Origin: Pseudomonadota bacterium
GTDB taxonomy: Bacteria; Desulfobacterota; Desulfobacteria; Desulfobacterales; Desulfobacteraceae
Direction: 5' to 3'
Assembly: GCA_018816605.1 (NCBI GenBank)
Contig: JAHIVS010000535.1
Coordinates: 1-19,121 of the forward strand
Length of the DNA: 19,121 nt
Shown in pieces: positions 1-19,121 of the stretch; position 1 is the first letter of the stretch; the number at the start of each line of letters is the position of its first letter. The position numbers and the translations under genes were made by a program. The notes under the pieces were generated by a model. The model made no database searches. It saw only the letters and a program-made list of their open reading frames with translations, and was not told where the DNA came from.

Positions 1-29
1 AACCTCCTCACTTGCTGGTCCGTTACCAT
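1..29 (-). CDS. istA: IS21-family transposase IstA, N-terminal fragment cut by window edge
   Basis: On the minus strand an ATG at 29-27 follows a good Shine-Dalgarno sequence (AAAGGAGA, about 37-44) and opens the reading frame MVTDQQVRR before the window ends. I recognise this as the usual opening of IstA transposases of IS21-like elements, which continue into a helix-turn-helix and a DDE integrase core. Only nine full codons are visible, so the call rests on the peptide start, the ribosome binding site, and the subterminal repeats and gene disruption next to it. The partner ATPase gene istB would lie further left. Confidence 0.55.
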
Positions 30-139
30 CCAGATTTCTCCTTTTGAGTGTGATTTGGATAGTCGTACCATTTTTTTAAGGTTTTACATTTCGGGAATTT
101 TAATTGTCGTTAGGCGGGAATTATAACTGACGCTGATCA
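1..139 (-). mobile_element. End of an IS21-family insertion sequence (partial)
   Basis: Reading leftwards, the lnt coding sequence stops making sense after the codons for FSGY (near position 140). A non-coding leader follows and then a transposase start at position 29. The leader holds two imperfect direct repeats, CGGGAATTTTAATTGTCGT (92-110) and CGGGAATTATAACTGACGC (115-133), with 15 of 19 bases identical and 23 bp apart. Repeated subterminal transposase sites like these are known for IS21-family ends. The outermost base is inferred as the TG read on the minus strand at 139-138. The rest of the element, its other end and any target duplication lie outside the window, so the exact boundary is uncertain. 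Confidence 0.6.
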
Positions 140-856: not shown

Positions 857-881
857 TTTCAGTGCGGACCTTTTAAATGAA

Positions 882-3368: not shown

Positions 3369-3412
3369 AGGCTTTTATCTCCACCATTGTGCATGTTCCC
3401 GGTTCATCAAAA

Positions 3413-3438
3413 GGGCCGTGGGGAAAATGCCGCGGCCC
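3413..3438 (-). terminator. Rho-independent terminator downstream of tdh
   Basis: A 9-bp GC-rich stem (GGGCCGTGG at 3413-3421 against CCGCGGCCC at 3430-3438, with one G-T pair) closes an 8-base loop. On the minus strand it is followed by TTTTG. It lies about 80 bases after the tdh stop and before the SEC-C gene start, so it probably ends the amino-acid transcript. Confidence 0.55.
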
Positions 3439-3517
3439 CAAAATATGGGATACTATTTAAGACAAGCCTTGGTCTTTGTCAAGAAAAGGGATCTAAGCCT
3501 TGATCAAATTTTTTTGT

Positions 3518-4543: not shown

Positions 4544-4568
4544 TTTTCCTCGTTTCTGTAAAAAAATT

Positions 4569-5762: not shown

Positions 5763-5783
5763 TTTGCCTCCTGCCGATGTGAT

Positions 5784-5823
5784 GTTCAACCCGGCACAGC
5801 CCCAATGGTGTGGCGGGTTGAAC
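5784..5823. promoter_or_regulatory. Perfect 10-bp dyad in the kbl leader
   Basis: GTTCAACCCG (5784-5793) pairs perfectly with CGGGTTGAAC (5814-5823). After one mismatch, CACA (5795-5798) pairs with TGTG (5809-5812), leaving a 10-base loop. The dyad ends 21 bp before the kbl ATG and contains no uridine run for the minus-strand transcript. It could be an operator or a structured leader. No known riboswitch or T-box is recognisable. Confidence 0.5.
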
Positions 5824-5842
5824 AGGGTTTTAACAATTTTTG

Positions 5843-5878
5843 ATAAAAAACAGGTGGGTGTTTACATCTGTTTTTTAT
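5843..5878 (-). terminator. Rho-independent terminator at the end of the cysteine synthase gene
   Basis: A perfect 11-bp inverted repeat, ATAAAAAACAG (5843-5853) and CTGTTTTTTAT (5868-5878), starts within the stop codon of the cysteine synthase gene. The stem is weak in GC but has A- and T-runs on both sides, a common form of bidirectional terminator. There is no gene facing it from the plus strand. Confidence 0.5.
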
Positions 5879-6792
5879 GCATCAAACAGGTCTTCAACAC
5901 TCAGATATCTCTCGCCTGAATCGGCAAATATACCAACCAGAGTTTTGCCCTTGTTTTCCGGCATATTGCCAAGTCTTTCCAATACACAGGCCACGGCCCC
6001 GGAAGTGATACCGACCAGAATACCTTCTGTTCTGGCAAGCTGTCTGCACATTGCAAACGCATCTTCCTCTTTTACCAGCAGGATCTCATCGATAATGTCC
6101 CGATCCAGAGTTTCAGGCACAAAACCCGGAGCGGTACCCATCATGCGATGGGGTTTAAAGATGCCTTTGGAAATGAATGGAGCGCTTTCAGGCTCAATGG
6201 CCATGAGCTGAACCTTGGGATTCTGTTCCTTGAGATATTTCCCGGCCCCGCAGATCGTGCCGCCGGTACCGAGGCCTGCAATCAGGATATCAATGGTTCC
6301 TTCCGTGTCTTTCCACAACTCAGGGCCCGTGGTTTTGTAATGGGCCTGGGGATTGTTCATATTAATGTGCTGGCCCACATAAAAGTACTCGGGATGTTGT
6401 TCTCTTATTTCATTCATCCGTACCTTAGCACCTTTGGTACCAAGGGAGGCGTCAGTCAACTCAAGTTCGGCCCCAAGGGCCTTCATTATTTTACGCCTTT
6501 CAATGCTCTGGATGGCCGACATGCAGAGGATAAGCCGATACCCCTTAAGGGCAGATATATAGGCCAGGGCCATACCGGTATTGCCGCTGGTCATTTCGAT
6601 CAAGGTATCGCCCGGTTTGATTTTGCCGGTCCTTTCAGCCTCGCTGATGATATTCAGCATGGGCCGGTCCTTGACGCTAAAGGGATTCATGAATTCACAC
6701 TTGGCAAGCAGCGTTGCATTGTCTGAAAGTTTGTTAAGTCTTACCAGAGGGGTGTTTCCGATTAAATCAAGCATTGAGTTTGAATATTTCAT
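5875..6792 (-). CDS. cysK: Cysteine synthase-family PLP enzyme (O-acetylserine sulfhydrylase-like)
   Basis: The protein is 305 residues of the beta-family of PLP enzymes, close to CysK, which makes cysteine from O-acetylserine and sulfide in the cytoplasm. Seen in the sequence: GNTPLVRLN (12-20); the PLP lysine Lys41 in NPFSVKDR; the substrate loop TSGNTG (68-73); SIERR; the phosphate-binding glycine loop GLGTGGTICG; and GITSGA near residue 266, holding the serine that contacts the pyridine nitrogen. The C-terminus ends shortly after the conserved GERYLS segment; no CBS domain is present. AGGAGA lies 8 bp before the ATG at 6792. It sits 57 bp after the transporter gene. Related enzymes of this fold also degrade cysteine or use phosphoserine, so the exact substrate is not fixed by sequence alone. 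The presence of a transporter and threonine-degrading genes rather than cysE leaves a catabolic role open. Confidence 0.88.
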   Translation of the reverse strand: MKYSNSMLDLIGNTPLVRLNKLSDNATLLAKCEFMNPFSVKDRPMLNIISEAERTGKIKPGDTLIEMTSGNTGMALAYISALKGYRLILCMSAIQSIERRKIMKALGAELELTDASLGTKGAKVRMNEIREQHPEYFYVGQHINMNNPQAHYKTTGPELWKDTEGTIDILIAGLGTGGTICGAGKYLKEQNPKVQLMAIEPESAPFISKGIFKPHRMMGTAPGFVPETLDRDIIDEILLVKEEDAFAMCRQLARTEGILVGITSGAVACVLERLGNMPENKGKTLVGIFADSGERYLSVEDLFDA

Positions 6793-6849
6793 ACATTTCT
6801 CCTGTTACTGCATCGTAATAATTTGTAAAATAATGGCTGTAAATACACA

Positions 6850-8088
6850 TTATTTTTGCCAGCATTTTGATGTCTTGCCATCAAATAGTTTTTCTGATTT
6901 TGATACCAGTGTGGCACCTACAATATCACCCACCACGTTGGTGGCGGTAATCCCCATATCCAGGATTCGGAATATCCCGATCATCATTGCACCGGCCTCT
7001 ATGGGCAGACCAAAGGAAGAAAGGAATATGGTTGTCGAGACAAAGATTCCGCCCGGTATGCCAGGGCTTCCCAGTGTCAGAAGAAGGCCCATGAATGAAA
7101 ATTGTAAAATGGTACCAAAGGTGACCTCCATGCCGACAATCTGTGCGGCAAATACCCCCATGATTCCAAACCAGATGGCATTGCCGTCCATATTCATGGT
7201 TGCGCCCAGGGGAATGGAGAAATTGGTTATATTGCTGGGCAGGCCCAGGTCTTCTTCAGCCACCCTCAATGTAACAGGTATGGTTGCGGCACTGCTGCAA
7301 AGTGTAAATGCCGTGAGCCATACTGGCTTGACTTTTTTGAGAAAAGTAAAGGGATTAAGCCGGACAAAACAAAAAATCACGCCCATGTATACACAGACAA
7401 CCTGAAGAATGAGCGCCGCATAGACACTGGCGAAAAAACGAGCAAACGGACCAAAAATATCAGCCCCGAACTTCCCGGCGGTCCAGGCCATGAGGGCGGC
7501 AATTCCATAGGGGGCCAATTCCATTACCATCATGATGATTTTGAGCATCAAAGTCGAAAGGTCATGGAAAGCACCGATCAGTCGTGTCTTTGTGTTTCCC
7601 CCAATCAGCAGGATGGCAATACCGGTAAAAATTGAAAACAATATGACCTGGGGCAAAGATCCTTCTGCCATGGCACTGAAAATATTACCCGGGATGAACG
7701 AAGACAGGGTATCCCAGAAACCTGACATGGCCTGAGCTTTTGGTGCATCAGCTGCCGTTTCAAGCACAATACCTGTTCCCGGGCTGAACAATTGTCCCAC
7801 AAAAGCACCAATCATGGCTGCAATAAATGTGGAAACTGTATAATATATCATCAATTTGCTTCCGGCTTTTCCGAAATTGCGTGCATCATCCATCTGACCG
7901 ATACCATAAACCACATTGGCAAAAATAAGAGGGACAACTGCCATTTTCAACAGCTTCATGAAAACCATGCCAATGGGTTGAAGGGATATCCCAAATTCCG
8001 GAGCGATAAACCCGATGATCAGCCCGATAGCCATACCGATGAAAATCTTGTTTGCCAGTCCAATTTTCTTTTTTTTTGCTGCAACCAT
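6850..8088 (-). CDS. Dicarboxylate/amino acid:cation symporter (DAACS), probably neutral amino acid type
   Basis: This 412-residue inner-membrane transporter belongs to the GltP/GltPh sodium- or proton-coupled symporter family. The family landmarks are the serine-rich hairpin 1 (SSAAT, 265-269), NMDG in TM7 (299-302), hairpin 2 (GSPGIPGG, 340-347) and the TM8 motif DMGITATNVVGD (377-388). Compared with GltPh, the amino-group and cation residues are kept (Asp377, Asn384, Asp388 for D394, N401, D405). The arginine that clamps the acidic side chain (R397) is Ile380, and T314 of NMDGT is Asn303. I infer that the substrate is not glutamate, aspartate or a C4-dicarboxylate. Neighbouring kbl-tdh suggests threonine or serine. 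A perfect AAGGAGG precedes the ATG at 8088. Confidence 0.93.
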   Translation of the reverse strand: MVAAKKKKIGLANKIFIGMAIGLIIGFIAPEFGISLQPIGMVFMKLLKMAVVPLIFANVVYGIGQMDDARNFGKAGSKLMIYYTVSTFIAAMIGAFVGQLFSPGTGIVLETAADAPKAQAMSGFWDTLSSFIPGNIFSAMAEGSLPQVILFSIFTGIAILLIGGNTKTRLIGAFHDLSTLMLKIIMMVMELAPYGIAALMAWTAGKFGADIFGPFARFFASVYAALILQVVCVYMGVIFCFVRLNPFTFLKKVKPVWLTAFTLCSSAATIPVTLRVAEEDLGLPSNITNFSIPLGATMNMDGNAIWFGIMGVFAAQIVGMEVTFGTILQFSFMGLLLTLGSPGIPGGIFVSTTIFLSSFGLPIEAGAMMIGIFRILDMGITATNVVGDIVGATLVSKSEKLFDGKTSKCWQK

Positions 8089-8108
8089 AGAAACCTCCTT
8101 AAAAATTC

Positions 8109-8138
8109 AATATACACAATTGTCAAACCTCTATTCAA
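8109..8138 (-). promoter_or_regulatory. Possible promoter of the transporter gene
   Basis: On the minus strand TTGAAT (8138-8133) and TATATT (8114-8109) are separated by 18 bp and end 20 bp before the transporter ATG, just upstream of its AAGGAGG. A second -35-like TTGACA (8126-8121) lies between them. The match is reasonable, but the region is very AT-rich, so chance matches are likely. Confidence 0.3.
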
Positions 8139-8390
8139 CCTGCCTTAACCCACTAAATGATACCAAAACTTTTTCCCTGGTAGCAGTTAAGGCGTATTGC
8201 CAATCATATTTACTAATTTTTTGTGATGCACTATCACCTTCCAAATCATACTGGTTGATTGCCTGCCCTTTTTTTGCAGCTTTTGGTTTAAGGCAGAATC
8301 TTGATCTCCAACTCTTTACAAAATCAATTGTTTGCGAGTTGAATCAACATACCATAAAAATAGATAAAAATACGGTCACAATTCATGATT

Positions 8391-8672
8391 TCATACAAAT
8401 CATTTTTAAATTATCGTTAAATAGAAATGAATATTTCATAATATGTCATATATATCATGTGCAGTAATTCGATAAGTGAAACCGATTGATTTCACGCCTG
8501 CATTTAATATAGCATTAGCCATAATTAACTATTTTTATAATTAAAAAATTAGCAAAAACATTCTTTTTTAAAGCAAATGAAAGCCTTGCTTTTTATGAAA
8601 TTTTCATATATATCATTGGCACTTATTGTTTTTAATAAAATCGGAGGGATTAGAATTTTTCATACATATCAT
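8391..8672. repeat. Four copies of TCATAYAWATCAT in two equally spaced pairs (putative operators)
   Basis: The 13-bp motif occurs at 8391-8403 (TCATACAAATCAT), 8446-8458 and 8604-8616 (both TCATATATATCAT) and 8660-8672 (TCATACATATCAT), all in the same orientation. Each copy is itself a TCAT-N5-TCAT direct repeat. Starts are 55 bp apart in the first pair and 56 bp in the second. The last copy overlaps the AraC-family start codon. Direct-repeat half-sites are usual for AraC-family regulators, so autoregulation with DNA looping is a reasonable inference. The first pair is about 300 bp upstream of the transporter gene. Confidence 0.6.
8570..8592. other. Hairpin in the AT-rich divergent region
   Basis: AAAGCAA (8570-8576) and TTGCTTT (8586-8592) form a perfect 7-bp inverted repeat with a 9-base loop, flanked by T-rich sequence on both sides. 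It lies between operator-like copies 2 and 3. It could be a weak terminator or attenuator ahead of the AraC-family gene. Nothing else in the 8089-8670 gap looks like a gene; it is strongly AT-rich. Confidence 0.3.
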
Positions 8673-9531
8673 GGCTAATCGTTCAATAAAAGAATGCAAT
8701 GGGTCAAAGATAGTGCATGAGATCGCATCTGCCCAATATTTTTCCAGGGTATTGATGTTGTCCGAAGCTTCAAAATCCTATGGTGATCAGATCCTTTTCA
8801 GTTATCCCTTTTACAGAATAGTCATTTGCTACTCTGGCAATGCTGAATTTACCGTGATGAAAGAGGGGCAGCCGGCGATTATAGGACTATCACCTGGGGA
8901 AGCTATGATTATTGTACCAGGGGCCTGGGTCAGAAGTATTAACCAAAAGCCCTATGAAACATGTGGCGTGCTTTTGCGGGAGCAGTCAATGGATCTCTTT
9001 ACCAATGATCATCTTTGCCGCCACAGACATCGGTCCATGACACCCATCCGCTATGTAAAAGAGGAGCTTCATATCCTGTTTAAACAGGCTGTTGAATTCT
9101 CAGGCAGTGAAAAATTGTTGCAGCAATATGCCCGGCTGATATGGACTCATATTGATGAAATTATTAAAAAACACAATCTGCCATCAGGATCCCATGGAAC
9201 ATTTATAAGGGTGAAATCCTATGTGGGCAAACACTTTCAGTTTGGAATAAACAGAAAAATTGTTGCCGGGGAATTGGGCTTGAACCAGGATTATCTCAAT
9301 GCCCTCTTTCATCAGTTTACCGGGCTGAGTTTTACCGAATATATTGTGAAGGTAAAGCTGGAAAAAGCAAAAGATATTCTACGAGATAAGAGTCTCTCCA
9401 TTGCCCAGGTCAGCAAGGTGTGCGGCTTCAACTCCAACACCTATTTCGGTCGCCAGTTCAAAAAATATTATGGCATGACCCCCCTGGTATACCGAAAATC
9501 ATTGTCATTATTCAGCAAAAAACTGCCTTGA
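8671..9531 (+). CDS. AraC-family transcriptional regulator with N-terminal cupin-like sensor
   Basis: The protein is 286 residues from the ATG at 8671. Residues about 40-115 form a beta-rich, cupin-type ligand domain (SGNAEFTVMKEGQ, then SPGEAMIIVPGAWVR). Residues 178-275 are the two helix-turn-helix units of the AraC/XylS fold: IVAGELGLNQDYLNALFHQF, then IAQVSKVCGFNSNTYFGRQF followed by the typical YGMTPLVYRK ending. The frame also opens at a TTG at 8626 but no ribosome binding site precedes it. The ATG has GGAGGG 22 bases upstream, further than usual, so translation may be weak. A repeated operator-like motif overlaps the ATG. It is divergent from the amino-acid transporter and upstream of the Tct operon, so either could be the target. 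Confidence 0.85.
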   Translation: MANRSIKECNGSKIVHEIASAQYFSRVLMLSEASKSYGDQILFSYPFYRIVICYSGNAEFTVMKEGQPAIIGLSPGEAMIIVPGAWVRSINQKPYETCGVLLREQSMDLFTNDHLCRHRHRSMTPIRYVKEELHILFKQAVEFSGSEKLLQQYARLIWTHIDEIIKKHNLPSGSHGTFIRVKSYVGKHFQFGINRKIVAGELGLNQDYLNALFHQFTGLSFTEYIVKVKLEKAKDILRDKSLSIAQVSKVCGFNSNTYFGRQFKKYYGMTPLVYRKSLSLFSKKLP

Positions 9532-9595
9532 CATGGGGGTACAAGTCAAACCCAATTATCCCCTGAAGCATCCGTGATAATTTTTTTCAAAGGAC

Positions 9596-9601
9596 TTGAC
9601 A
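9596..9601 (+). promoter_or_regulatory. Possible -35 element of the gntR-tct operon
   Basis: A consensus TTGACA stands 87 bp before the gntR ATG. At 17 bp spacing the -10 position reads AATGGT, a poor match, so an activator may be needed or the promoter is elsewhere. The 151-bp gap between the AraC-family gene and gntR otherwise contains only the tandem repeat described separately. Confidence 0.25.
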
Positions 9602-9628
9602 AAGAATTACTTATCTGGAATGGTGAAT

Positions 9629-9666
9629 TTTAAAAGAACTAACTTTAAAAGAACTAACTTTTAGTT
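9629..9666 (+). repeat. 15-bp tandem repeat plus inverted repeat before gntR (putative GntR operator)
   Basis: TTTAAAAGAACTAAC is repeated exactly at 9629-9643 and 9644-9658. The end of the second copy also forms an inverted repeat, AACTAA (9652-9657) and TTAGTT (9661-9666), with a 3-base centre. It ends 16 bp before the gntR ATG, where autoregulatory operators of FadR-type repressors are often found. Binding by this GntR protein is inference. Confidence 0.5.
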
Positions 9667-9682
9667 GCGCCAGAGGAGAGAG

Positions 9683-10399
9683 ATGGAAAACGCACTCCAG
9701 GATGGGATAATTCGTAAAGAACGAATATCAGACCAGATTAAATCCATATTAAAGCAATCCATTCTGGACGGACATTTCAAACCTGGAGACAAATTTCCCC
9801 CTGAAATTGAAATCGCCCAGAAATATAATGTGAGCAAGGTTTCTGCCCGGGAAGCATTGCGGGAAATGGAATCAGAAGGACTGATTCAAAAAAAAAGGGG
9901 GGTATTCGGCGGCAGCTTTATTGCCGAGCCCGGTTCTGAAAAGATGGTGGATGTGGTCATTAACTCCTATCTGTTTGGCGGCATCAGCGCCAGGGATCTG
10001 GCCGAATTCAGACGGATTCTTGAACCCGGGCTTGCAAAGCTTGCTGCGAAAAGACGGACCACGAAAGATCTGGCCGCCATGGAACTGTGTATCCATGATA
10101 TTGAAGCATCCATTAATGAAGGCCATCCGGATCAGACAAAAGCCATCGGATTTCATCGCCTGATTGCCGATGCCTGTCACAATCCATTCATCAGCAGTCT
10201 GATGGAAGCGCTGGTCAGTGTGTTTCAACAGGTGCTGGCCAAAACCCCTGATTTAAAAACAGCTCAAAAAGACCTTCACTACAATCAATTGTTTCTTGAC
10301 TGCATTCGACAACGGGATGGAAAAAGAGCTGAGCAGGTGATGGAACAACATTTTGATACCCTGGAAGAGATCATCCGAGAAAAAGAGGGAAAAAAATGA
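9683..10399 (+). CDS. GntR-family regulator, FadR/FCD type
   Basis: This 238-residue regulator has a winged helix at residues 15-82 (ISDQIKSILKQSILDGHFKPG, then VSKVSAREALREMESEGLI) and a helical FCD effector domain at about 105-232. Probable metal or ligand residues of the FCD pocket include His158 (GFHRLIADA), His199 and His223 (MEQHF). FCD regulators usually sense organic acids and repress their own catabolic operon. The ATG at 9683 is chosen because GAGGAGAG lies directly upstream; the frame opens 18 bases earlier at a TTG. It is the first gene of the tct operon, 42 bp before tctC, with a likely operator just upstream. The operon's substrate is probably the effector. Confidence 0.92.
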   Translation: MENALQDGIIRKERISDQIKSILKQSILDGHFKPGDKFPPEIEIAQKYNVSKVSAREALREMESEGLIQKKRGVFGGSFIAEPGSEKMVDVVINSYLFGGISARDLAEFRRILEPGLAKLAAKRRTTKDLAAMELCIHDIEASINEGHPDQTKAIGFHRLIADACHNPFISSLMEALVSVFQQVLAKTPDLKTAQKDLHYNQLFLDCIRQRDGKRAEQVMEQHFDTLEEIIREKEGKK

Positions 10400-10441
10400 A
10401 TGGGACCCATTAAGCAAAAACTATATATAAGGAGAATTGCA

Positions 10442-11395
10442 ATGAAAAAAATCATCATCCGTCTTATGTTCAGTGCCCTTGTTTTGACCCTGGTTGTTCC
10501 GGGAATATCGTTTGCCGCATGGCCGAAAAAACCCATACAGATCATTATCCCCTGGCCGGCTGGCAATGATCCCTCCACAATGGTTGCCACGTCCATGGCA
10601 CCGCTCATGTCTGCAGAACTGGGTGTGCCTGTGAAGGTGGTGAACAAACCCGGCGGAGGGGCGGTGTTGGCGACCAACGAACTTAAAAACAGCCATCCCG
10701 ACGGATATACCATGGGGTTGATATCCATCGGCCCCATGATCACCCAGGTTCTCAGGGGCAAGACCCCTTATAAAAACCAGGATCTGCGACCCCTGGGTCT
10801 TGTCTGGTCTTCTCCCTTTACACTGGCCTGCCGGGCAGATGCGCCCTATAATAATTTAACGGAACTATCCGCCTATGGGAAAACCCATGATTTAAAACTG
10901 GCACATTGGGGATTGGGTGCCGTCCCCACCTTAATTGCCATGAATGCCGCCAAAATCGGTGGGTTTGCATGGAAAGAAACCGCATATAAAGAGTTGAATC
11001 CCCTGCTGATCATCAAAGGAGATGCGGACGTGATAACCTTTTCAACCCCGGGGATCAAAGATTATGTGGAAGCCGGGAAAATGAAAATCCTGGCCTGCAT
11101 GCTGCCCCAGCGCCTTGACCAGTATCCCGATGTACATACCGTGGCCGAAGACGGATTCGGGGACGCCTATTCCATATGGTTCGGTGCCTTTGTTCCGGCT
11201 GCCACACCCGATGAGATCGTCACACGGCTCAGTGATACCTTTTTCAAGGTCATGGCCATGCCCAAAATCCAGGAAGTGATCAAAAACGTCGGGGTGATTC
11301 CACACCCCACGGGTCCGGAAAAGGCCAGAAAGCAGATGGACAGCGAACTTAAAAATTTTGGTACGATCATGAAGGATCTGAAGATCATTCAATAG
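10442..11395 (+). CDS. tctC: Tripartite tricarboxylate transporter substrate-binding protein TctC (Bug family)
   Basis: The 317-residue protein has a clear signal peptide (MKKIIIRLMF, hydrophobic core, cleavage probably ISFA|AWP near residue 25), so it works in the periplasm. The mature start, AWPKKPIQIIIPWPAG, is the hallmark of TctC/Bug proteins, which bind carboxylates through a strand-end loop. KPGGGAVLATNEL and HPDGYTMGL are further family motifs. The ATG at 10442 has AAGGAG at 7 bp and gives the signal peptide; an in-frame ATG at 10400 would add 14 residues and disrupt it. The ligand cannot be read from the sequence. tctB follows after 16 bp. Confidence 0.94.
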   Translation: MKKIIIRLMFSALVLTLVVPGISFAAWPKKPIQIIIPWPAGNDPSTMVATSMAPLMSAELGVPVKVVNKPGGGAVLATNELKNSHPDGYTMGLISIGPMITQVLRGKTPYKNQDLRPLGLVWSSPFTLACRADAPYNNLTELSAYGKTHDLKLAHWGLGAVPTLIAMNAAKIGGFAWKETAYKELNPLLIIKGDADVITFSTPGIKDYVEAGKMKILACMLPQRLDQYPDVHTVAEDGFGDAYSIWFGAFVPAATPDEIVTRLSDTFFKVMAMPKIQEVIKNVGVIPHPTGPEKARKQMDSELKNFGTIMKDLKIIQ

Positions 11396-11411
11396 ATCCA
11401 CAAGGAGGATC

Positions 11412-11906
11412 ATGTCTGACAAAGCGTTTTCTTCAAGCCGGGTTCATGACCTTTTGGGGTCTTTGCTGGGGGTGTTTGCCGCGTCCATGCTGATCTCTTG
11501 TCCTTGGCAGGTGGACACCTCCGGCCCCGACCCCTTTTACAAGGGTCCGTTGATATTCCCGTTGATTCTCTTTGGTTTGATCCTGGCGGGTTCTTTGCCG
11601 TCCATGTGGCGGTTGTGCAAGCCTTCACTGAATGCATCCTGGTATCTGGACGGACAGGGGAAATCCTTAAAAAGCATGGTCATCCTGGGACTGTTGATCG
11701 TCTACCTGGCAGGCCTTATGGTGATCGGGCTGGAAGTTTCCACCTGGCTGTTCCTGGTCATTGCCTTGAAGTTTGTAAAACAGGACTCCCCTTTAAAAAT
11801 CACCCTGATTCCGTTACTTATCACCTTGATTCTATTTTTTATTTTCAAAATATTCCTGGATGTATGGTTCCCTGAACCGCTCATCATGGGGATATTTCAG
11901 GAGTAA
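11412..11906 (+). CDS. tctB: Tripartite tricarboxylate transporter small membrane subunit TctB
   Basis: The protein is 164 residues with about four membrane helices (around residues 16-32, 46-64, 82-108 and 130-152), the arrangement of TctB. The loop GPDPFYKGPLIFPLILFG between helices 1 and 2 resembles the family's conserved glycine/proline loop. TctB pairs with TctA in the inner membrane and receives substrate from TctC. AAGGAGG precedes the ATG. The gene ends 3 bp before tctA, and the tctA ribosome binding site lies inside its last codons, so translation is likely coupled. TctB sequences vary widely; position between tctC and tctA is strong support. Confidence 0.9.
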   Translation: MSDKAFSSSRVHDLLGSLLGVFAASMLISCPWQVDTSGPDPFYKGPLIFPLILFGLILAGSLPSMWRLCKPSLNASWYLDGQGKSLKSMVILGLLIVYLAGLMVIGLEVSTWLFLVIALKFVKQDSPLKITLIPLLITLILFFIFKIFLDVWFPEPLIMGIFQE

Positions 11907-11909
11907 ACC

Positions 11910-13403
11910 ATGGTTGAAAATTTACTGGCCGGTTTCTGGGCTGCCACCTCTCTTTCCAATCTGGCTGCATTGTTTTCCGGCACCCTTGTGGGAATCATTG
12001 TGGGGATTCTGCCGGGCCTGGGTCCCATGGTCGGGATGGTGGTATTGTTGCCCTTCAGCTTTGCCTTCCCGCCGAATGTAGCCCTCTCCCTTCTTTTGGG
12101 CGTGTTTTGCGGGGGATACTATGGCGGCGGAATCCCGGCGATCCTCCTGCGGACACCCGGGGTGCCCTCTTCCCTGGTGACCAGTTTTGACGGCTATCCC
12201 CTGACCCAGAGGGGCGAAGCACAAATTGCGCTTTCCGCGGCATTGCTGGGATCTTTTGGCGGTGGGATAATCAGTGTTCTGATCCTGATTTTTCTGGCCC
12301 CTGTCCTGGCCCATGTGGCGGCCAGTTTTGGACCGCCCGAATATTTTGCCGTGGCCGTGTTCGGGGTCGTGTTGGTGGTCATGGCTTTCCGGGCCCAGTT
12401 GGGACGGGGCATTATGCTGTTGGGGTTGGGGTTCTTTTTTTCAACCGTGGGCATTGACGGCACCACCTTAAGCCAGCGGTTCTGCTTTGGAACCCTTTCC
12501 ATGCAGAACGGTCTGGATATCGTTCCCATTTGTCTCGGGCTCTTCGGTATCGGCCAGACCCTGATCCTGGTGGAACAGGAGATCATGAAAACCCATGACA
12601 TTCAATTGAGTCGCTCATCCCTTGATTTTTCCAAACTCTGGAAGGTGTTGAAATATTGGAAAACCCTGATACGCTCCAGTGTCATCGGTACTTTTGTGGG
12701 GCTTTTACCCGGTACGGGTTCCATCCTGGCCTCATTTCTCTCCTATGATGTGGCCAAACGGCTGTCAAAGGACAAATCGCTTTTTGGAAAAGGAACCCCC
12801 GAAGGATGCCTGGCAGCAGAAGCCGGGAACAATGCCGTGCCGGCCGGGGCCATGATTCCGCTTCTCACCCTGGGTATTCCGGGAGATGCATTGAGTGCGG
12901 TGCTCCTGGGCGTTTTTACCATTAACGGCATATACCCGGGGCCCCTGCTCCTTATCAAAGAGCCGGTTCTGATTTCCACCCTTTATATCTCCATGCTGTT
13001 CATCAATATTGCCGCATTTGTCATGCTGATTGTCTGGCTGCGGCCATTTGCCATGATTGTAAAAGTGCCGGGCCGATTACTGGCAGTGGTGATAATGGTT
13101 ATTTCAGTGGTGGGGATTTACGCCGTCAATACGCGGTTGTTTGATGCCGGGGTTGCCATTGCCATGGGGGTTCTCGGCTATGCCCTGCTGCGAATGAAAT
13201 GGCCCATTGTCAATCTTGTTATGGGAGTGGTTCTGGGTGAAATCATGGAAAACCGGCTGAGGCAAACCTTAAGCCTTGGCGACGGCAGTCTCTGGATTGT
13301 ATTCCAACGGCCCATCAGCCTTTTTCTGATCGTCTTAACCTGTCTGATCATCATTGTCCCCTTTGTCCTGGATGCCAGGAAAGCAAAAAAGAAAATAGTA
13401 TAA
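11910..13403 (+). CDS. tctA: Tripartite tricarboxylate transporter large permease TctA
   Basis: The 497-residue polytopic membrane protein is the ion-coupled channel of the TTT system. The conserved TctA motifs are present: GIIVGILPGLGPMVGMVVLLP near residues 28-48, GGYYGGGIPAILLRTPGVPSS near 68-88 with its DGYPL sequel, and a second inverted copy, GTFVGLLPGTGSILASFLSYD near 260-280, followed by GNNAVPAGAMIPLLTLGIPGD. These two LPG-containing regions form the substrate site. About 11-12 helices are apparent. It is followed after 26 bp by the arylsulfotransferase-like gene, which suggests that the imported compound is the substrate or regulator of that protein. Confidence 0.96.
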   Translation: MVENLLAGFWAATSLSNLAALFSGTLVGIIVGILPGLGPMVGMVVLLPFSFAFPPNVALSLLLGVFCGGYYGGGIPAILLRTPGVPSSLVTSFDGYPLTQRGEAQIALSAALLGSFGGGIISVLILIFLAPVLAHVAASFGPPEYFAVAVFGVVLVVMAFRAQLGRGIMLLGLGFFFSTVGIDGTTLSQRFCFGTLSMQNGLDIVPICLGLFGIGQTLILVEQEIMKTHDIQLSRSSLDFSKLWKVLKYWKTLIRSSVIGTFVGLLPGTGSILASFLSYDVAKRLSKDKSLFGKGTPEGCLAAEAGNNAVPAGAMIPLLTLGIPGDALSAVLLGVFTINGIYPGPLLLIKEPVLISTLYISMLFINIAAFVMLIVWLRPFAMIVKVPGRLLAVVIMVISVVGIYAVNTRLFDAGVAIAMGVLGYALLRMKWPIVNLVMGVVLGEIMENRLRQTLSLGDGSLWIVFQRPISLFLIVLTCLIIIVPFVLDARKAKKKIV

Positions 13404-13429
13404 TTTGAGATTTTAAAAGGAGTATTTAA

Positions 13430-14869
13430 ATGACCTATCCCAGTATATATCCGACCGGAACCACCCTGTATCTTCCTGAAAAATGTTTTAACGGCTATCC
13501 CCTTCTCCCGGCCAAGGAGCTGGGCGCACTTTTGATTGATATGAACGGCGGGGAAGCCAAGCTCTGGAAAGGATTGCAGGGGTTTCCCAATAAACTGCTC
13601 CGGGACGGTCATGTCCTCGGGCATACCGGGGAAAGATCCACCAAATTCGGCATGCAGGATTACCGGGACCTGGTCCAGGTGGATTGGGACGGCAATGTGG
13701 TGTGGAAATTCAACGAATACGAATATATTGAAGACCCGGGAGAAGATCCCCAGTGGATGGCCCGGGCCCACCATGATTACCAGCGCCAGGGAAATCCCGT
13801 GGGATATTATGTGCCGGGTATGGATGGGGCAATTGACAAGGGAAACACCCTGATCCTGGGCCATAAAAACCTTATCTGCCCTGCCATATGCGACAAAAAT
13901 CTGCTGGATGATACCATCTATGAAGTCTCCTGGGAGGGGGATATCCTGTGGGAGTGGGTCTGCAGCGAACATTTTGACGAATTCGGGTTCCGGGAAGACG
14001 CAAAGAACGTTCTATCCCGTGATCCGAACATGCGGCCCTGCGGCGGCGGCATGGGCGACTGGATGCATTTAAATGCCATGTCCCTTCTGGGACCTAATAA
14101 ATGGCATGATGCAGGGGATGCCCGATTTCATCCGGACAATATCATTGTGGACGGCCGGGAAACCAACTTGATTTTTATCATTGATAAAGAGACCGGAAAG
14201 GTGGTGTGGAAAATCGGCCCCTACTATGATTATACCCCGGAAAAGAGTCTGGGGTGGATCATTGGTCAACACCATGCCCACATGATCCCCAGGGGCCTGC
14301 CAGGGGAGGGCAACATTCTGGTCTATGACAACGGCGGCTGGGCCGGTTACGGCCCCTGTCATCCGGGAAGCCTTAACGGCACCAAAAATGTATTGCGCGA
14401 TTATTCCCGGGTCCTGGAATTTGACCCTGTGACATTAAAAATTGTCTGGCAGTTTACGCCCCAGGAGGCAGGACTGGTTCACCCCACGGACAGCAACCGG
14501 TTTTACAGCCCGTTTATCAGTTCCGCCCAGAGACTGCCCAACGGCAACACCCTGATCACCGAAGGCAGCGGGGGCAGAATCATTGAGGTGACCGCAGATC
14601 ATGAGCTGGTATGGGAATATATCTCTCCCTATTGGGGCAAACACTTTAAAATGAACATGGTATACCGGGCCTATCGCTACCCTTATGATTATGTCCCCCA
14701 GGTGGAAGCGCCGCATCAGATTGCCATCCCCCCATTGGATGTTACAAGTTTCAGGGTCCCCGGGGCAAGTCCCAAAGGTCCTCGGTCGGAAGTGATGGTC
14801 GAAGGAGTGGTGCCCTATCAGACTTCCTCTGCCCTGTGCGTGATATCCGACACAGATCATGCCAAATAG
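13430..14869 (+). CDS. Arylsulfotransferase (ASST)-like beta-propeller protein, cytoplasmic
   Basis: The protein is 479 residues and resembles PAPS-independent arylsulfotransferases, which move sulfate between phenols. Five or more propeller-blade repeats of the type GNVVWKF are visible (about residues 88, 171, 257, 336 and 391). Family active-site blocks are DWMHLNAMS (His213), QHHAHMIP...GNILVYDNGG (His281/His282), SRVLEFDP (Arg327) and SAQRLPNGNTLI (365-376). Unlike periplasmic AssT there is no signal peptide: the N-terminus MTYPSIYPTGTTLYLPEKC is hydrophilic. The loop expected to hold the sulfohistidine nucleophile reads EGSGGRIIEVT with no histidine (from remembered family features, not an alignment). 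It may therefore be a binding or differently acting propeller. AAAGGAG precedes the ATG. It lies in the tct operon, 14 bp before the glutaredoxin-like gene. Confidence 0.8.
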   Translation: MTYPSIYPTGTTLYLPEKCFNGYPLLPAKELGALLIDMNGGEAKLWKGLQGFPNKLLRDGHVLGHTGERSTKFGMQDYRDLVQVDWDGNVVWKFNEYEYIEDPGEDPQWMARAHHDYQRQGNPVGYYVPGMDGAIDKGNTLILGHKNLICPAICDKNLLDDTIYEVSWEGDILWEWVCSEHFDEFGFREDAKNVLSRDPNMRPCGGGMGDWMHLNAMSLLGPNKWHDAGDARFHPDNIIVDGRETNLIFIIDKETGKVVWKIGPYYDYTPEKSLGWIIGQHHAHMIPRGLPGEGNILVYDNGGWAGYGPCHPGSLNGTKNVLRDYSRVLEFDPVTLKIVWQFTPQEAGLVHPTDSNRFYSPFISSAQRLPNGNTLITEGSGGRIIEVTADHELVWEYISPYWGKHFKMNMVYRAYRYPYDYVPQVEAPHQIAIPPLDVTSFRVPGASPKGPRSEVMVEGVVPYQTSSALCVISDTDHAK

Positions 14870-14883
14870 GAGAACAAAACACC

Positions 14884-15702
14884 ATGAGGTTTCAGCTTTT
14901 CACGGCGACCGGATGCAGCCGGTGCAATATCATTAAATCCTTTATGGACACCCATCAGATTGCCCATGAAGAACTGGACATCAAAACCAATGGAAAAGAT
15001 GCCTTTAAGGTTTTTTACCGGGAAAACCGGCCGGATATTTTCCGGGGGGAAGAGGGGGTGGAATTTCCCATTTTGTTTGCCGGTCAAAAAATTTATCAGG
15101 GGGTTGGCATCATCCTGGCCTCGCTTATGGCCGATGACCGGCTTGACGGGTTCGTCACCAGAAGTCAGTTGAGCCACGGCTGGATCAGCGGGTTGACCCT
15201 TTCGGCAAAACCGCTCTCGGATGGCAGGGAGTTTCTGTGTCTCCTGAGGTTTCTCAAAGAGGCGGGGCTGATGATTCAATTGGAAACGGACGGACGAAAC
15301 AGCCTTGTCCTGGAAACCATTTTAAAGGAAAAACTGATCCATGACCTGGTATTTCGACTGCGCGGTCCGGCCCAATTGTATGAACCTTTGACGGGTATGG
15401 CTTTAAGCCAGGAAGAACTGGTCCACAGCCTTTCCCTGTTAACCGATTCTATTAAATATAAAATTGTTCTGCCCCTGTCTGCACTGATCCGAACCACCGG
15501 AGAAGAGGGGTATCTGACCCCGGAGGAAGCCGCCGGAGCAGCAGCGTTCGTGGTCTCGGCAACCCACAACAAAAAACATCCATTTTTCATTGAGCCGGTT
15601 CTGCCGGCCGCAACATATAATATCCCCCCATTGCCGCCCGCTGCCTTGTTTAAATACAGAACCGCATGCCGGCGCCATCTGCTGTTATGTGAAATTTTAT
15701 AG
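14884..15702 (+). CDS. Glutaredoxin domain fused to a radical-SAM-like barrel lacking its cluster cysteines
   Basis: The protein is 272 residues from an ATG preceded by AGGAG at 11 bp. Residues 1-85 form a thioredoxin fold: MRFQLFTATGCSRC with redox motif Cys11-x-x-Cys14, and a cis-proline-type EFPILF (60-65). Residues 100-205 read like the later strands and helices of a PFL-activase-type radical SAM barrel: ISGLTLSAKPLSDGREFL (like SGGEPL), LLRFLKEAGLMIQLETDGR, LIHDLVFRLRGP, then LTGMALSQEELVHSL. No CxxxCxxC motif exists; the remaining cysteines are 119, 262 and 269. The barrel comparison is by eye. The gene is last in the tct operon, so it may keep the sulfotransferase-like protein or its substrate reduced. 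It could also be a standalone redox adaptor. Confidence 0.65.
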   Translation: MRFQLFTATGCSRCNIIKSFMDTHQIAHEELDIKTNGKDAFKVFYRENRPDIFRGEEGVEFPILFAGQKIYQGVGIILASLMADDRLDGFVTRSQLSHGWISGLTLSAKPLSDGREFLCLLRFLKEAGLMIQLETDGRNSLVLETILKEKLIHDLVFRLRGPAQLYEPLTGMALSQEELVHSLSLLTDSIKYKIVLPLSALIRTTGEEGYLTPEEAAGAAAFVVSATHNKKHPFFIEPVLPAATYNIPPLPPAALFKYRTACRRHLLLCEIL

Positions 15703-15743
15703 GATAAGACCTTGCTTTTTTAACTGAAATCATCGGAAACTCG

Positions 15744-15780
15744 AAAGTCCTGCCAATTCGATGAATGGTCAGGGCTTTTT
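15744..15780 (+). terminator. Rho-independent terminator of the tct/ASST operon
   Basis: AAAGTCCTG-CC pairs with GG-T-CAGGGCTTT across an AATTCGATGAAT loop (one G-T pair, one bulged T) and runs into TTTTT at 15776-15780. It lies about 40 bp after the last gene of the operon. The remaining sequence to 15858 shows no gene. Confidence 0.8.
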
Positions 15781-15858
15781 GAAAAATAATCTGGAGACGT
15801 TCTACTCTCCCAAATTGCCAATTTTATAACCACCATCGACACTAAAGAGCAAAACATA

Positions 15859-16293
15859 TTATGAAAGAGAACTCCATCCATCAATAATACCGGCTATGAA
15901 GATTATGCCAATGAACAGAGACCCAAGTGAAAAAAGGATAAACCGTGGCGCAACAGGTATTGAAACATGAAAAACGCCAACTACAACAAGAAATTCCGGC
16001 AGCAACAAAAGACCACGGATGATAAAAACACAGCTTATCCCAACAAGTCCCTGTTTCAAAAACGGTAATTTTCGAATAGAACCTGCTCCAGAGAGAGCAT
16101 ATAAACCAAAAACAACAAGGACACCTGCAATAAAAAGGCTTGCAACAATAAGGGCAACAATATTTTTGACCAATGCTTCGGGTGCACCAAAATATAGACT
16201 TAGTGATGGAGAAAAGCCTATCACCACCTGAAATAATGCAAGAGCAAAACAAATTATCCCTGCCAATGCGAGTCTTTGCTTGAAATTTTTCAT
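15859..16293 (-). CDS. Small four-helix membrane protein of unknown function
   Basis: The protein is 144 residues, nearly all hydrophobic, with four predicted helices (about 8-27, 43-68, 79-100 and 117-138). It has no metal-binding or catalytic motif; the short basic N-terminus MKNFKQR favours a cytoplasmic N-terminus. Its ATG overlaps the stop codon of the qmoC-like gene (ATGA), so the two are translationally coupled and probably work in the same membrane. I do not recognise the family. It could be a stabilising or quinone-site subunit of the complex. Confidence 0.7.
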   Translation of the reverse strand: MKNFKQRLALAGIICFALALFQVVIGFSPSLSLYFGAPEALVKNIVALIVASLFIAGVLVVFGLYALSGAGSIRKLPFLKQGLVGISCVFIIRGLLLLPEFLVVVGVFHVSIPVAPRFILFSLGSLFIGIIFIAGIIDGWSSLS

Positions 16294-17432
16294 TTAGAGA
16301 CTTCCTTTTTTACATAGTGGTAAAAGGCAATCGCAACGGTCCGGTAAACCAGATGGGCCAACTTGGTATAAGGCAGAAAGGCCACCAGGTTAAACGCAAA
16401 GAGCAGATGGATAAAATACATGGAATAAGCCGCCCAGGAGATATCTGCCAGTCTGAGCATCTGGGTAAGCATGCCTGTGATTCCTAGGAAAAGGGCAAGG
16501 CCCAGCAGATACCAGTCAAAATATCCATTGGTCTGTCTTATGTTTGCCCTTCGTTCCCGGATCAGAAGCAGGCTGCCGGCAACCAGAGCGATGCCTGATA
16601 CATTGGCCAGAATTTTCACCGGATTGATCTGATCATAGGGGCCGTGGCTGTTAAGAACATAGAGGGCAAAAACAAAGGCACCGGCCACAAAAGCAAGGCT
16701 GGTAAATGAAAAGGCCACCATCATGTGGGAAATTTTCCGTCCTTTGTTTTCGGAGCAGGTGGAAAACCGTTCGTGTTTTATGATGGCGGGCAGCTGGGTG
16801 ATCAAGGTGATCAGGAACCGTTTAAAATCAATGGGGCTGGTGGCGGCCTTGCCCAGCCGTTCATAGGTAGCCTGCATATCCTTAAGAAATCTACTGACGC
16901 CTAAAAAAAAGACCAGGGCCACTCCCAGGGACAGGGGAATAAAAATTATCTCGATCAGGAGCACGGGAAAAAAATGGGCAAAAACAATGCGTTCCCCGCC
17001 AGGGGACAGATTCATCAAGCCTGTAACCAGCCCCATGGTGATGATGATCAGGGCCGGAATGATAAAAAGCCATGGCAGCTTCCGGCTGTCATTGAGAAAC
17101 CGGTGCATGACAGCTGGTTTTGAATATTCTCGGATGGACATTTTTCTCAAAGTATTCAGCACATCACCCGGCCTGGCATCCCGCGGGCAAAGCGTGGAGC
17201 AATCCCCACAATTGTAGCACAGCCAGATATCGGGGTTTGCGATAAGCCTGTCCTTCAATCCCCAGGAAGCATGGATCATCTCCTTTCTGGGAAAAGGCTG
17301 GTCATTGTGGGACAGGGTACAGGCCACGGAACAGGTGGCGCATTGGTAACATTTTTTAAGGTTCAAGCCTGAGTCTGAGTTAACTTGGGCAATAAAATCC
17401 AGATCAGGTTCAATAAAGCCAAATGAAGCCAT
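16290..17432 (-). CDS. qmoC: QmoC-like membrane iron-sulfur/cytochrome b protein
   Basis: The protein is 380 residues, the usual QmoC size. The N-terminal cytoplasmic part binds two [4Fe-4S] clusters (Cys28, 31, 34, 38 and Cys72, 75, 78, 82), as in HdrC. The C-terminal part has about six membrane helices from residue 118 with scattered histidines (FAHFF, KISHMMVAF, YFIHLLFAF), as in heme b-binding gamma subunits. QmoC passes electrons between the menaquinone pool and QmoAB, the partner of APS reductase in sulfate reducers. Here qmoA, qmoB and aprBA are absent, so this is an orphan copy. It is 15 bp downstream of tetR and overlaps a four-helix membrane protein gene. The partner may be another HdrA-type flavoprotein encoded elsewhere. 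Confidence 0.88.
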   Translation of the reverse strand: MASFGFIEPDLDFIAQVNSDSGLNLKKCYQCATCSVACTLSHNDQPFPRKEMIHASWGLKDRLIANPDIWLCYNCGDCSTLCPRDARPGDVLNTLRKMSIREYSKPAVMHRFLNDSRKLPWLFIIPALIIITMGLVTGLMNLSPGGERIVFAHFFPVLLIEIIFIPLSLGVALVFFLGVSRFLKDMQATYERLGKAATSPIDFKRFLITLITQLPAIIKHERFSTCSENKGRKISHMMVAFSFTSLAFVAGAFVFALYVLNSHGPYDQINPVKILANVSGIALVAGSLLLIRERRANIRQTNGYFDWYLLGLALFLGITGMLTQMLRLADISWAAYSMYFIHLLFAFNLVAFLPYTKLAHLVYRTVAIAFYHYVKKEVSK

Positions 17433-17447
17433 AACGATACTCCTTAA

Positions 17448-18053
17448 TTACAAAAGGGTCTGTTCAACAAGGGTTTCAAGCAAAGCGGCCATTTGATCAG
17501 GGTCTGTCATTTTGTCACGTACAAAGCAATTGACCAGAACAAAAAAATAATTGGACATCAAAGCAAGTGCCAGAATATGGCTGTCTTTTGCAGGGTTGAT
17601 CTCTCCCTTTTTCTGGGCTTCCCGAATCAGTTGGGCCATCTTCATGGCATAGTCATCATCAAAGGCATTGATCTCATCCAGCCATTCTCGTTCATAAAAA
17701 AACAGATGACTCAAATAGGCCCGGGAAAGGGAATAATGGGTGGTATAAAAGATGAAAAATTGTTTTGAGATATGAACAAAGGTGGCCTGGAAGGATTGAT
17801 TATCCGGCACAGTGGTCAAGGCATCCTGGTACAGATTTTTCAAATCATCTGAAAAGGCTGCTGCCAGCATGGACAGCTTGTTGGGAAAATGCTTGTAAAT
17901 GGTCCCAATGCCGATCCGTGACCGGGCGGCTACATTTCGGATGGTTACTTTGTCATAGTCTTGGGTTTCAAAAAGTTTTCTGGCACTTTCTAAAATCATG
18001 GTACGGGTTTCACCCTTCTGCACTTCTCGTCGGTTTCCTTTTGGTTGTTCCAT
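17448..18053 (-). CDS. TetR-family transcriptional regulator
   Basis: The 201-residue protein has the TetR DNA-binding domain at about 17-65 (TRTMILESARKLFETQDYDK, VTIRNVAARSRIGIGTIYKHF, PNKLSMLAAAF) and a helical ligand domain with many aromatic residues (FFIFYTTHYSL, LSHLFFYERE), suggesting a hydrophobic effector. The ATG at 18053 is used because it lies 6 bp after AAGGGTGG; a TTG seven codons upstream is possible. It heads the tetR-qmoC-membrane protein operon, 15 bp before qmoC. The promoter just upstream is embedded in a repeated palindromic operator, which points to autorepression. Confidence 0.92.
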   Translation of the reverse strand: MEQPKGNRREVQKGETRTMILESARKLFETQDYDKVTIRNVAARSRIGIGTIYKHFPNKLSMLAAAFSDDLKNLYQDALTTVPDNQSFQATFVHISKQFFIFYTTHYSLSRAYLSHLFFYEREWLDEINAFDDDYAMKMAQLIREAQKKGEINPAKDSHILALALMSNYFFVLVNCFVRDKMTDPDQMAALLETLVEQTLL

Positions 18054-18066
18054 CTCCACCCTTTTC

Positions 18067-18127
18067 AATAACACGTTATGTTAAGCGAACGTGTTCACTC
18101 AATATAACGTGTTATTCATATTGTCAA
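18067..18127 (-). promoter_or_regulatory. tetR promoter inside a three-half-site operator with 18-bp phasing
   Basis: A perfect 13-bp inverted repeat, AATAACACGTTAT (18067-18079) and ATAACGTGTTATT (18104-18116), flanks a third half-site. The core AACGTGTT occurs inverted at 18070-18077 and direct at 18088-18095 and 18106-18113, exactly 18 bp apart. On the minus strand a consensus TTGACA (18127-18122) is followed by TATTGA (18104-18099, 17 bp) or TATATT (18106-18101, 15 bp), so the outer half-site lies in the promoter spacer. Repressor binding there would block RNA polymerase. The protein bound is most likely the adjacent TetR. Confidence 0.75.
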
Positions 18128-18207
18128 GAAAATTTCAGAACCAAAAAATAAAAAATGGTGTTGATTTTTTGAATCGTTATGGATAAGGTAAGCTTATCTA
18201 ATTCGCA

Positions 18208-18271
18208 TCATTCTGGAAGGATTTTCTTTTCAAACTCTAAATTTACGCGCCCCCATTCTTTGCCAGAATGA
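18208..18271. repeat. Spaced inverted repeat upstream of the hypothetical gene
   Basis: TCATTCTGG (18208-18216) and CCAGAATGA (18263-18271) form a perfect 9-bp inverted repeat with a 46-bp spacer, ending 43 bp before the ATG at 18315. A smaller dyad, GATAAG-GTAAG-CTTATC, lies at 18182-18198. They may be regulatory sites or coincidence. Confidence 0.3.
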
Positions 18272-18314
18272 ATTTATGGTCATTCGGCCCAACGTTCAAG
18301 AAAGGAGTGTGGAT

Positions 18315-19043
18315 ATGCTTTTTCATCCAATTTTAAGTCTTAAAAAACACAGTGATGGAACCTTTACTTTAAATGCGGTGACCTATGGTCCCAACTCTTG
18401 TATTAAAGCAGGTGCGGCAAGGATTGGAGCACCCCAGGGAGAATCCTTTATTAAGGCAGCCCAGCCGGTCACCCTTGTCATGGAGGAAGCCGGAGAAATT
18501 TGCGCCCAGGTCACGACACCTATGGCCCATACCCTTAAAGGAATCACGCCTGAAGGTCAGACCAATACCATGATTCAGGTTTTTGTGGTGTTTAGGGATG
18601 AAGTTAGAGGCATTGCCACGATCTGCTTTGAGCAGGCGGATCTGGGAAAAAACCTGGGGACGTCGAAACTGCATTCTGTGAGCACCTACCACCTTCACGC
18701 GCAGAACCTGAAAATCATCATCGAAGGCGCAGACTCTAAAGATCCTGTAATGGTCTATGAATCGGTTTCAAGAGAAGAACGTTATCATGGCAAATCGCTT
18801 TCCGTGGAAAAGACTCCGGTTGGCACATTGTACTCTGCAGCCATTGAAATTATACCGGATCTGCACTCCAGATTTTTGACCATTGTGGCCCCCCAGGCCA
18901 ATTGCCCTGAAGATGCTCGTTCTGTCTCCATTGAGACCCTGGCCATTGAAACCTTAAGTGAGGATCATTTTGCTGGGCCTGTCGCCATTGACCGTCAAAT
19001 ACAGACATATAAGGTTGTACACCTGACAGGGAACGCCTGGTAA
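18315..19043 (+). CDS. Hypothetical protein, unknown function
   Basis: The protein is 242 residues from the ATG at 18315, which has AAAGGAG 8 bp upstream; the frame opens earlier at 18276 without a ribosome binding site. It is soluble, with no signal peptide or membrane segment. The sequence is rich in beta strands and alternating hydrophobic residues (AQPVTLVMEEAGEICAQV, MIQVFVVFRDEVRGIATICF, LKIIIEGADS) and has few cysteines (about 4), suggesting a beta-sandwich. I do not recognise a family or catalytic motif. It is divergent from the tetR-qmoC operon with about 200 bp between them, so the TetR operator could also affect it. The 78 bases after its stop contain no feature I can support. Confidence 0.7.
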   Translation: MLFHPILSLKKHSDGTFTLNAVTYGPNSCIKAGAARIGAPQGESFIKAAQPVTLVMEEAGEICAQVTTPMAHTLKGITPEGQTNTMIQVFVVFRDEVRGIATICFEQADLGKNLGTSKLHSVSTYHLHAQNLKIIIEGADSKDPVMVYESVSREERYHGKSLSVEKTPVGTLYSAAIEIIPDLHSRFLTIVAPQANCPEDARSVSIETLAIETLSEDHFAGPVAIDRQIQTYKVVHLTGNAW

Positions 19044-19121
19044 ATTGTTTGCAGGGGTAATGCCAGCCATTGATGAGCATCCAAAAATTAGAACACATAA
19101 ATGCAAAAAGCCCTACCACGA

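Follow-up and report, generated by a model that had tools for sequence, protein, structure and literature searches.

A cytoplasmic arylsulfotransferase-like protein encoded with importers and dithiol proteins: a candidate system for reductive desulfation of organic sulfate esters

Our analysis of a 19,121-nucleotide stretch of DNA from a bacterium placed in the Desulfobacteraceae (assembly GCA_018816605.1, contig JAHIVS010000535.1, positions 1 to 19,121 of the forward strand; hereafter the window) reveals an operon, gntR-tctCBA-ASST-like-Grx fusion, that is built around a sulfotransferase linked to dithiol proteins and in which the tct importer genes are an interchangeable part. ASST stands for aryl-sulfate sulfotransferase, and the Grx fusion (family GRX) joins a glutaredoxin (Grx) domain to a partial radical-SAM-type barrel. 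The operon probably serves to take up an organic sulfate ester and to desulfate it reductively, as suggested jointly by the importer, the site for sulfuryl transfer, the repeated occurrence of dithiol devices, and hosts that are mostly sulfite reducers.

The six genes (Table 1) are separated by gaps of 42, 16, 3, 26, and 14 bp, calculated with ATG start codons picked by inspection for gntR, tctC, and the Grx fusion, for which the mechanical open reading frames (ORFs) begin earlier; the ORFs confirm the genes, coordinates, and gaps given in a first-pass annotation of the same sequence. Pfam assigns the first five products to the GntR/FCD, TctC, TctB, TctA, and Arylsulfotrans (PF05935) families, and the presence of TctA, TctB, and TctC together identifies a tripartite tricarboxylate transporter (TTT), with a TctC leader peptide called by inspection. 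On inspection, neither the ASST-like protein nor the Grx fusion has a hydrophobic leader at its N-terminus, supporting the first-pass proposal of import followed by a cytoplasmic ASST-like step. As that annotation had also proposed, the operon ends at a terminator-like hairpin followed by a U run (−17.4 kcal/mol, z = −3.95, 0 of 200 shuffles equal in the folding test); a simple terminator scan did not list this hairpin. The order TctA-ASST-GRX on a single strand recurs in 18 of the 80 loci surveyed below (the window included), indicating that the arrangement is not due to chance, and gntR-tctCBA-ASST-like-Grx fusion is a real operon.

Scanning genome contigs for the ASST-like gene confirmed 469 places. 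The best 80 of these, forming 79 loci, were kept and combined with the window to give 80 loci; the sample therefore leans to close relatives. Four ORF clusters (c10, c14, c33, and c34) were judged to be antisense frames over ASST, GRX, or transporter genes and were discarded, and the neighbourhoods were therefore redone with family calls by tblastn. Families found in the 80 loci include GRX (53), TctA (29), a Crp-type regulator (25), genes labelled as dihydrolipoyl dehydrogenase (LPD, 22), and GcvH (21). Importers comprise TTT (29, called by TctA), DASS (19), TRAP (14), MFS (7), and NhaC (3) types. In addition, SsuA-family binding proteins are encoded in L072 (163.7 bits, cut-off 163.5) and L079 (140.1 bits, under the cut-off), and an SsuABC-like transporter adjoins homologues in L104 and in the Paenibacillus plasmid L108. 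Among the 41 loci whose flanks reach 5 kb or more in both directions, GRX is found in 24, any dithiol partner in 26, an importer in 37, and TctA in 15. In a FastTree tree of the 80 ASST-like proteins, in which many forks are weak, neighbour labels switch many times.

The occurrence of several unrelated importers near the ASST-like gene indicates that the importer is a module. A specific partnership between Tct and ASST, as the first-pass annotation had put forward, is rejected on account of this swapping: TctA is not present at 51 of the 80 loci (some contigs being short), and the neighbourhood check suggested by the annotation found GRX without TctA in 32 of the 53 GRX-bearing loci, the outcome that the annotation had named as speaking against it. 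The closest relatives are Desulfobacula-type bacteria (86% identity), and carriers include the gut-type genera Desulfovibrio, Bilophila, and Mailhella. In Moorella sulfitireducens (L025, 5049–14127), the neighbours of the ASST-like and Grx genes include a ferredoxin-like ORF, an AprA/FrdA-like flavoprotein, and an amidohydrolase-like ORF recognised by eye.

The ASST-like protein matches PF05935 at 80.2 bits (cut-off 24.2), and its predicted structure (pLDDT 89.4) is a beta-propeller that matches Cpz4 and the E. coli ASST (EcAST). In particular, EcAST residues His356, Asn358, Arg374, and His436 align to H213, N215, R243, and H281, which are invariant in 80 of 80 loci proteins and in 209 of 209 proteins of a wider set (the best-scoring matches of two relative searches plus the window protein). 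An invariant HHD motif at residues 114–116 resembles the HHD of canonical ASSTs. Pfam gives no match to the N-terminal Ig-like domain PF17425, which is present in the canonical ASST of locus L054, indicating an ASST-fold subfamily rather than a canonical ASST; no PAPS_reduct domain is found among the Pfam matches at E up to 0.1. A C-terminal cysteine, Cys470, is kept in 80 of 80 loci proteins and 208 of 209 proteins of the wider set. It is absent from seven of seven distant homologues (two drawn from 34 plasmid records with a match, and one place in each of five of the eight tail-less genomes of the second sample described below), and no dithiol partner is found in the approximately 4–6 kb flanks of these seven. 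With an E-value limit of 1e-5, at least 7190 of 7998 scored candidates are related to the ASST-like protein, probably including tail-less members. The window protein is 72–74% identical to the five named Bacillota proteins with which it was aligned.

The predicted model of the Grx fusion comprises a Grx domain and a partial radical-SAM barrel, with a CxxC within a thioredoxin fold, as in the glutaredoxin/NrdH group. The Grx domain of the window protein matches PF00462 at 17.3 bits, under the 22.9 cut-off; one of four relatives scanned passes (P0106, 24.9 bits), and NCBIfam matches to NrdG2 and GlrX are far under their cut-offs. The Grx motif C-x-R-C is present in 105 of the 120 relatives listed, the remaining 15 being called from a later start, and the radical SAM motif CxxxCxxC in 0 of these 120.

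Further dithiol proteins surround the ASST-like gene in other loci. Wherever GcvH is present it accompanies GRX and never TctA; the lipoyl-lysine motif is kept in 21 of 21 cluster GcvH proteins, and both of the two that were scanned are above the gcvH cut-off. Across 24 genomes of our own choice, gcvH is present in at least two copies in 15 of 15 genomes with a cluster GcvH and in one copy in eight of the nine others, indicating that the cluster GcvH is a dedicated paralogue. The CxxxxC of LPD is carried by 20 of the 22 LPD-labelled genes; the label was rejected for L054 and L078, where the genes proved thioredoxin-reductase-like. LipB and LipA follow LPD in the same gene run in L044 and L045. 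The full row in these two loci (L044, 2025–8670; L045, 8636–15349) holds GcvH, GRX, the ASST-like gene, LPD, LipB, LipA, and a Crp-type regulator, a self-contained lipoyl kit.

In L072, L078, and L079, tblastn finds no GRX in the fetched flanks, and the ASST-like protein is itself fused to a C-terminal thioredoxin domain. This fused form is repeated in L103 and L105, and thioredoxin-reductase-like genes adjoin it in L078, L103, and L105. Among the 120 matches listed for the L079 protein are 28 newly listed proteins of at least 580 aa, including ones from Pectobacterium, Dickeya, Yersinia massiliensis, and Tatumella, and 28 of 28 have a CxxC and the C-terminal Cys. Neither chance nor a general protection against stress readily accounts for the grouping of several different dithiol devices with a single enzyme. 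In L054 (14145–18633), a canonical 630-aa ASST and, after it, a thioredoxin, a thioredoxin reductase, and a Grx fusion form one run near the ASST-like gene; judging from this locus, canonical ASSTs that lack a leader may be coupled to thiols as well.

Co-occurrence was assessed in two genome samples, one of 249 genomes from the phylum of the centre Desulfosporosinus G001 and one of 247 genomes from the phylum of the centre Desulfosediminicola G002; both samples include their centres, which were picked as gene carriers and from which the group names were taken. ASST-like carriers number 16 in each sample (E up to 1e-60). Full-length GRX is present in six first-sample and five second-sample genomes, and the ASST-like gene accompanies it in 11 of 11 (hypergeometric p = 3e-8 and 6e-7, respectively, uncorrected for shared ancestry), G001 having been known beforehand to hold both genes. 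The two genes are approximately 40 bp to 4.3 kb apart in these genomes, and 10.4 kb apart in G350. Weak matches to the GRX model (57–69 bits, 5 and 20 genomes) cover the barrel only, at model positions 83–249, and were dropped from this count as likely NrdG-type radical SAM proteins.

Carriers are also enriched for dissimilatory sulfite reductase. Specifically, a dsrA match that passes the cut-off is present in 40 of the 50 ASST-like genomes tested, which represent 50 of the 79 loci; in the first sample it is present in 11 of 16 carriers versus 27 of 233 other genomes (p = 7e-7), and in the second sample in eight of eight genomes with the Cys-tail form versus 114 of 239 others (p = 0.003). The ten of those 50 genomes without dsrA are Brenneria, Cetobacterium, Paenibacillus, a Lachnospiraceae genome, and six more, several being small or fragmented assemblies; in these four named carriers, sulfite could feed assimilation.

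The computed results are the linkage of the genes, the conserved active site, the dithiol partners and the fusion, the swapping of importers, and the enrichment of dsrA. We infer a sulfate-ester substrate, a thiol acceptor, a sulfite product, and a role for Cys470, and the following sequence of events. TctABC would import an organosulfate anion, and His281 of the cytoplasmic ASST-like propeller would take its sulfuryl group, freeing an alcohol or phenol. The sulfuryl group would then move from His281 to a thiol, possibly that of a mobile C-terminal Cys470 first. The CxxC of the Grx fusion would next receive the group or displace it, and its other thiol would expel sulfite, leaving a disulfide to be re-reduced. 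In relatives, dihydrolipoyl-GcvH with LPD, or thioredoxin with thioredoxin reductase, would replace or supplement the Grx fusion. Sulfite would enter dissimilatory sulfite reductase in sulfate or sulfite reducers, bypassing ATP sulfurylase, and sulfur assimilation elsewhere. Somewhat more tentatively, with about as much doubt as confidence, we propose that these proteins represent an undescribed reaction class, organosulfate:dithiol reductive desulfation (an "organosulfate reductase"), in which an ASST-fold enzyme would hand the sulfuryl group through a C-terminal Cys to a Grx, thioredoxin, or lipoyl protein and release sulfite with no ATP, so that sulfate and sulfite reducers could respire esters and others could scavenge sulfur. 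The redox protein that the first-pass annotation described as a helper is a genuine partner, and it seems to take part in the reaction itself instead of assisting in some general way.

PAPS/APS reductase (CysH), which acts on the nucleotide sulfates 3′-phosphoadenosine 5′-phosphosulfate (PAPS) and adenosine 5′-phosphosulfate (APS), transfers a sulfuryl group to a C-terminal Cys, from which thioredoxin or Grx releases sulfite. The likeness to our system would lie in the proposed chemistry only: the fold differs, and the CysH donor is a nucleotide sulfate made with ATP, whereas an organic sulfate is proposed here. We know of no link between Cpz4 and thiol carriers or importers. The Cpz4 structures (9KF4 and 9KF6) concern, by their entry titles, biosynthetic sulfation in Streptomyces, in caprazamycin synthesis. 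Compared with AssT of E. coli CFT073 (3ELQ and 3ETS), the window protein lacks a leader and a match to the Ig-like domain, and has an additional C-terminal Cys tail and cytoplasmic reductant partners. In the LbpA-sHdr system, a dedicated GcvH-like lipoyl protein is a sulfur carrier with lipoylation genes nearby (PMC6067878). That system oxidises sulfur, unlike the present one, in which the partners of GcvH are LPD and an ASST-like enzyme. GcvH was not found in the window by the tblastn queries. In Bilophila, a gut sulfite reducer, the isethionate sulfite-lyase IslA frees sulfite from an organic compound for respiration, but is a glycyl radical enzyme that cuts a C–S bond and belongs to another family than the ASST-like protein (PMC8473560). 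Predicted signal peptides are reported for 16 of 17 Sutterella ASSTs in an article that discusses their neighbourhoods (PMC10932419) and in which the word thioredoxin does not occur; another (PMC11576661) yielded nothing on physiology under the terms tried. SftP of Pseudomonas was considered as an ASST and rejected, being annotated as a TonB-dependent receptor (PMC4079955, PMC3596284). With limited search terms, we recognised no description of this coupling of ASST to dithiol proteins in the open-access literature.

Several observations weigh against reductive desulfation. No dithiol partner is found in the fetched flanks of 23 of the 80 loci, or in 15 of the 41 whose flanks reach 5 kb or more in both directions; in such loci the partner may be a general thiol. 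Likewise, GRX is not found in 10 of the 16 first-sample carriers or in three of the eight second-sample Cys-tail carriers, and the complete genome G002 has a TTT importer and an ASST-like gene and no Grx-fusion match at E 1e-15; in all of these, general thiols would be needed in its place. dsrA is lacking in 5 of the 16 first-sample carriers and is present in five of the eight second-sample genomes that have only a tail-less homologue, and thus is not specific to the Cys-tail form in that sample; moreover, none of the co-occurrence tests corrects for shared ancestry. As for the protein itself, the sole exception to Cys470, P0166, has Ala, and the counterpart of EcAST His252 is uncertain, MAFFT pairing it with V128 and the profile alignment stopping short. 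Finally, TTT and DASS carriers usually serve carboxylates.

Ordinary PAPS-independent sulfotransfer between phenols or alcohols, with thiol proteins that merely keep the enzyme folded or reduced, would fit a fold and active site that are those of ASSTs. The E. coli genes dsbL and dsbI come after assT, showing that ASST operons can carry thiol proteins, and DsbL and DsbI, which are periplasmic oxidants, are thought to keep AssT folded or reduced. The partners here, however, are reductants and carriers of the cytoplasm (thioredoxin with its reductase; the thioredoxin fusion; and lipoyl GcvH with LPD, even with LipA and LipB), and a folding role leaves both the dedicated lipoyl carrier and the dsrA enrichment unexplained, so that we regard this alternative as unlikely. 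An improbable variant keeps the thiol relay and replaces the O-sulfate ester with another anion, such as a sulfonate or thiosulfonate. It draws on the breadth of the importer families, which include TTT, DASS, and SsuA types, and on the fact that substrate identity is predicted only; against it stand the invariance of the four EcAST sulfuryl-site residues and an alkyl-sulfatase-like gene in L055. The latter, at 8240–9529 beside the ASST-like gene, encodes a metallo-beta-lactamase fold with an alkyl sulfatase dimerisation domain.

The reaction might instead run in reverse, sulfite being loaded as S-sulfo on a lipoyl or Grx disulfide and passed by the enzyme to an alcohol to form a sulfate ester. 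Lipoyl carriers do act in sulfur oxidation, as in sHdr-LbpA (PMC6067878), but many transporters near the gene belong to importer types that have solute-binding proteins, dsrA is present in most carriers tested, and ester synthesis from an S-sulfo thiol would be expected to be uphill, making this direction very improbable. That the ASST-like protein merely binds and senses the imported anion is scarcely credible: regulators from many families do occur nearby, but the catalytic residues are invariant throughout the 209 proteins and many loci already hold a GntR, Crp, LysR, or IclR regulator. Among the activities that the first-pass annotation left side by side, desulfation, directed onto thiols, is thus favoured, and sulfation and sensing are disfavoured.

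Table 1. Features of the operon and its 3′ end, in window coordinates
Feature	Position	Strand	Evidence
GntR/FCD-family regulator gntR, first operon gene	9683–10399	+	Pfam
tctC, TTT importer solute-binding protein with leader peptide	10442–11395	+	PF03401, 140.7 bits
tctB, small membrane subunit	11412–11906	+	PF07331, 41 bits
tctA, large membrane subunit	11910–13403	+	PF01970, 440.2 bits
ASST-like cytoplasmic beta-propeller sulfotransferase, 479 aa	13430–14869	+	PF05935, active-site residues, model
His281 codon	14270–14272	+	Alignment to E. coli ASST His436 (transiently sulfated)
Cys470 codon, C-terminal cysteine typical of the subfamily	14837–14839	+	Conservation
Grx fusion: glutaredoxin (CSRC) and partial radical-SAM-type barrel without Fe-S motif	14884–15702	+	
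CxxC (Cys11-Cys14) of the glutaredoxin domain	14914–14925	+	Both invariant in a 50-row alignment
Terminator-like hairpin and U run	15741–15782	+	Fold energy versus shuffles

Elsewhere in the window, a row of genes at 3518–8088 (− strand) encodes a dehydrogenase and an aminotransferase, which we take to be Tdh-like and Kbl-like, a PALP-family enzyme, and an SDF symporter; it looks like an operon for threonine or serine uptake and breakdown, and is faced by an AraC-type regulator (8626–9531). An lnt-like ORF of 234 aa (121–856, − strand), in which LNT_N and CN_hydrolase parts abut and which an out-of-frame ORF overlaps, looks shortened or disrupted. A qmoC-type gene (16290–17432, − strand; NF038018, 439.7 bits), a type that sulfate reducers carry, has as neighbours a TetR regulator and a small ORF that Pfam does not match; qmoAB was not found in those window ORFs that were scanned.

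Soils, sediments, and the gut contain a large pool of organic sulfur in the form of sulfate esters. From these esters the usual sulfatases yield sulfate, which sulfate reducers must activate with ATP. If our reading is correct, the thiol-coupled route would give sulfite directly and save that ATP, and would link sulfated host and plant compounds to the formation of hydrogen sulfide, possibly by an unrecognised route. It would also provide a role for proteins whose sole annotation is "aryl-sulfate sulfotransferase" or "thioredoxin", and would add a further function to those of lipoic acid.

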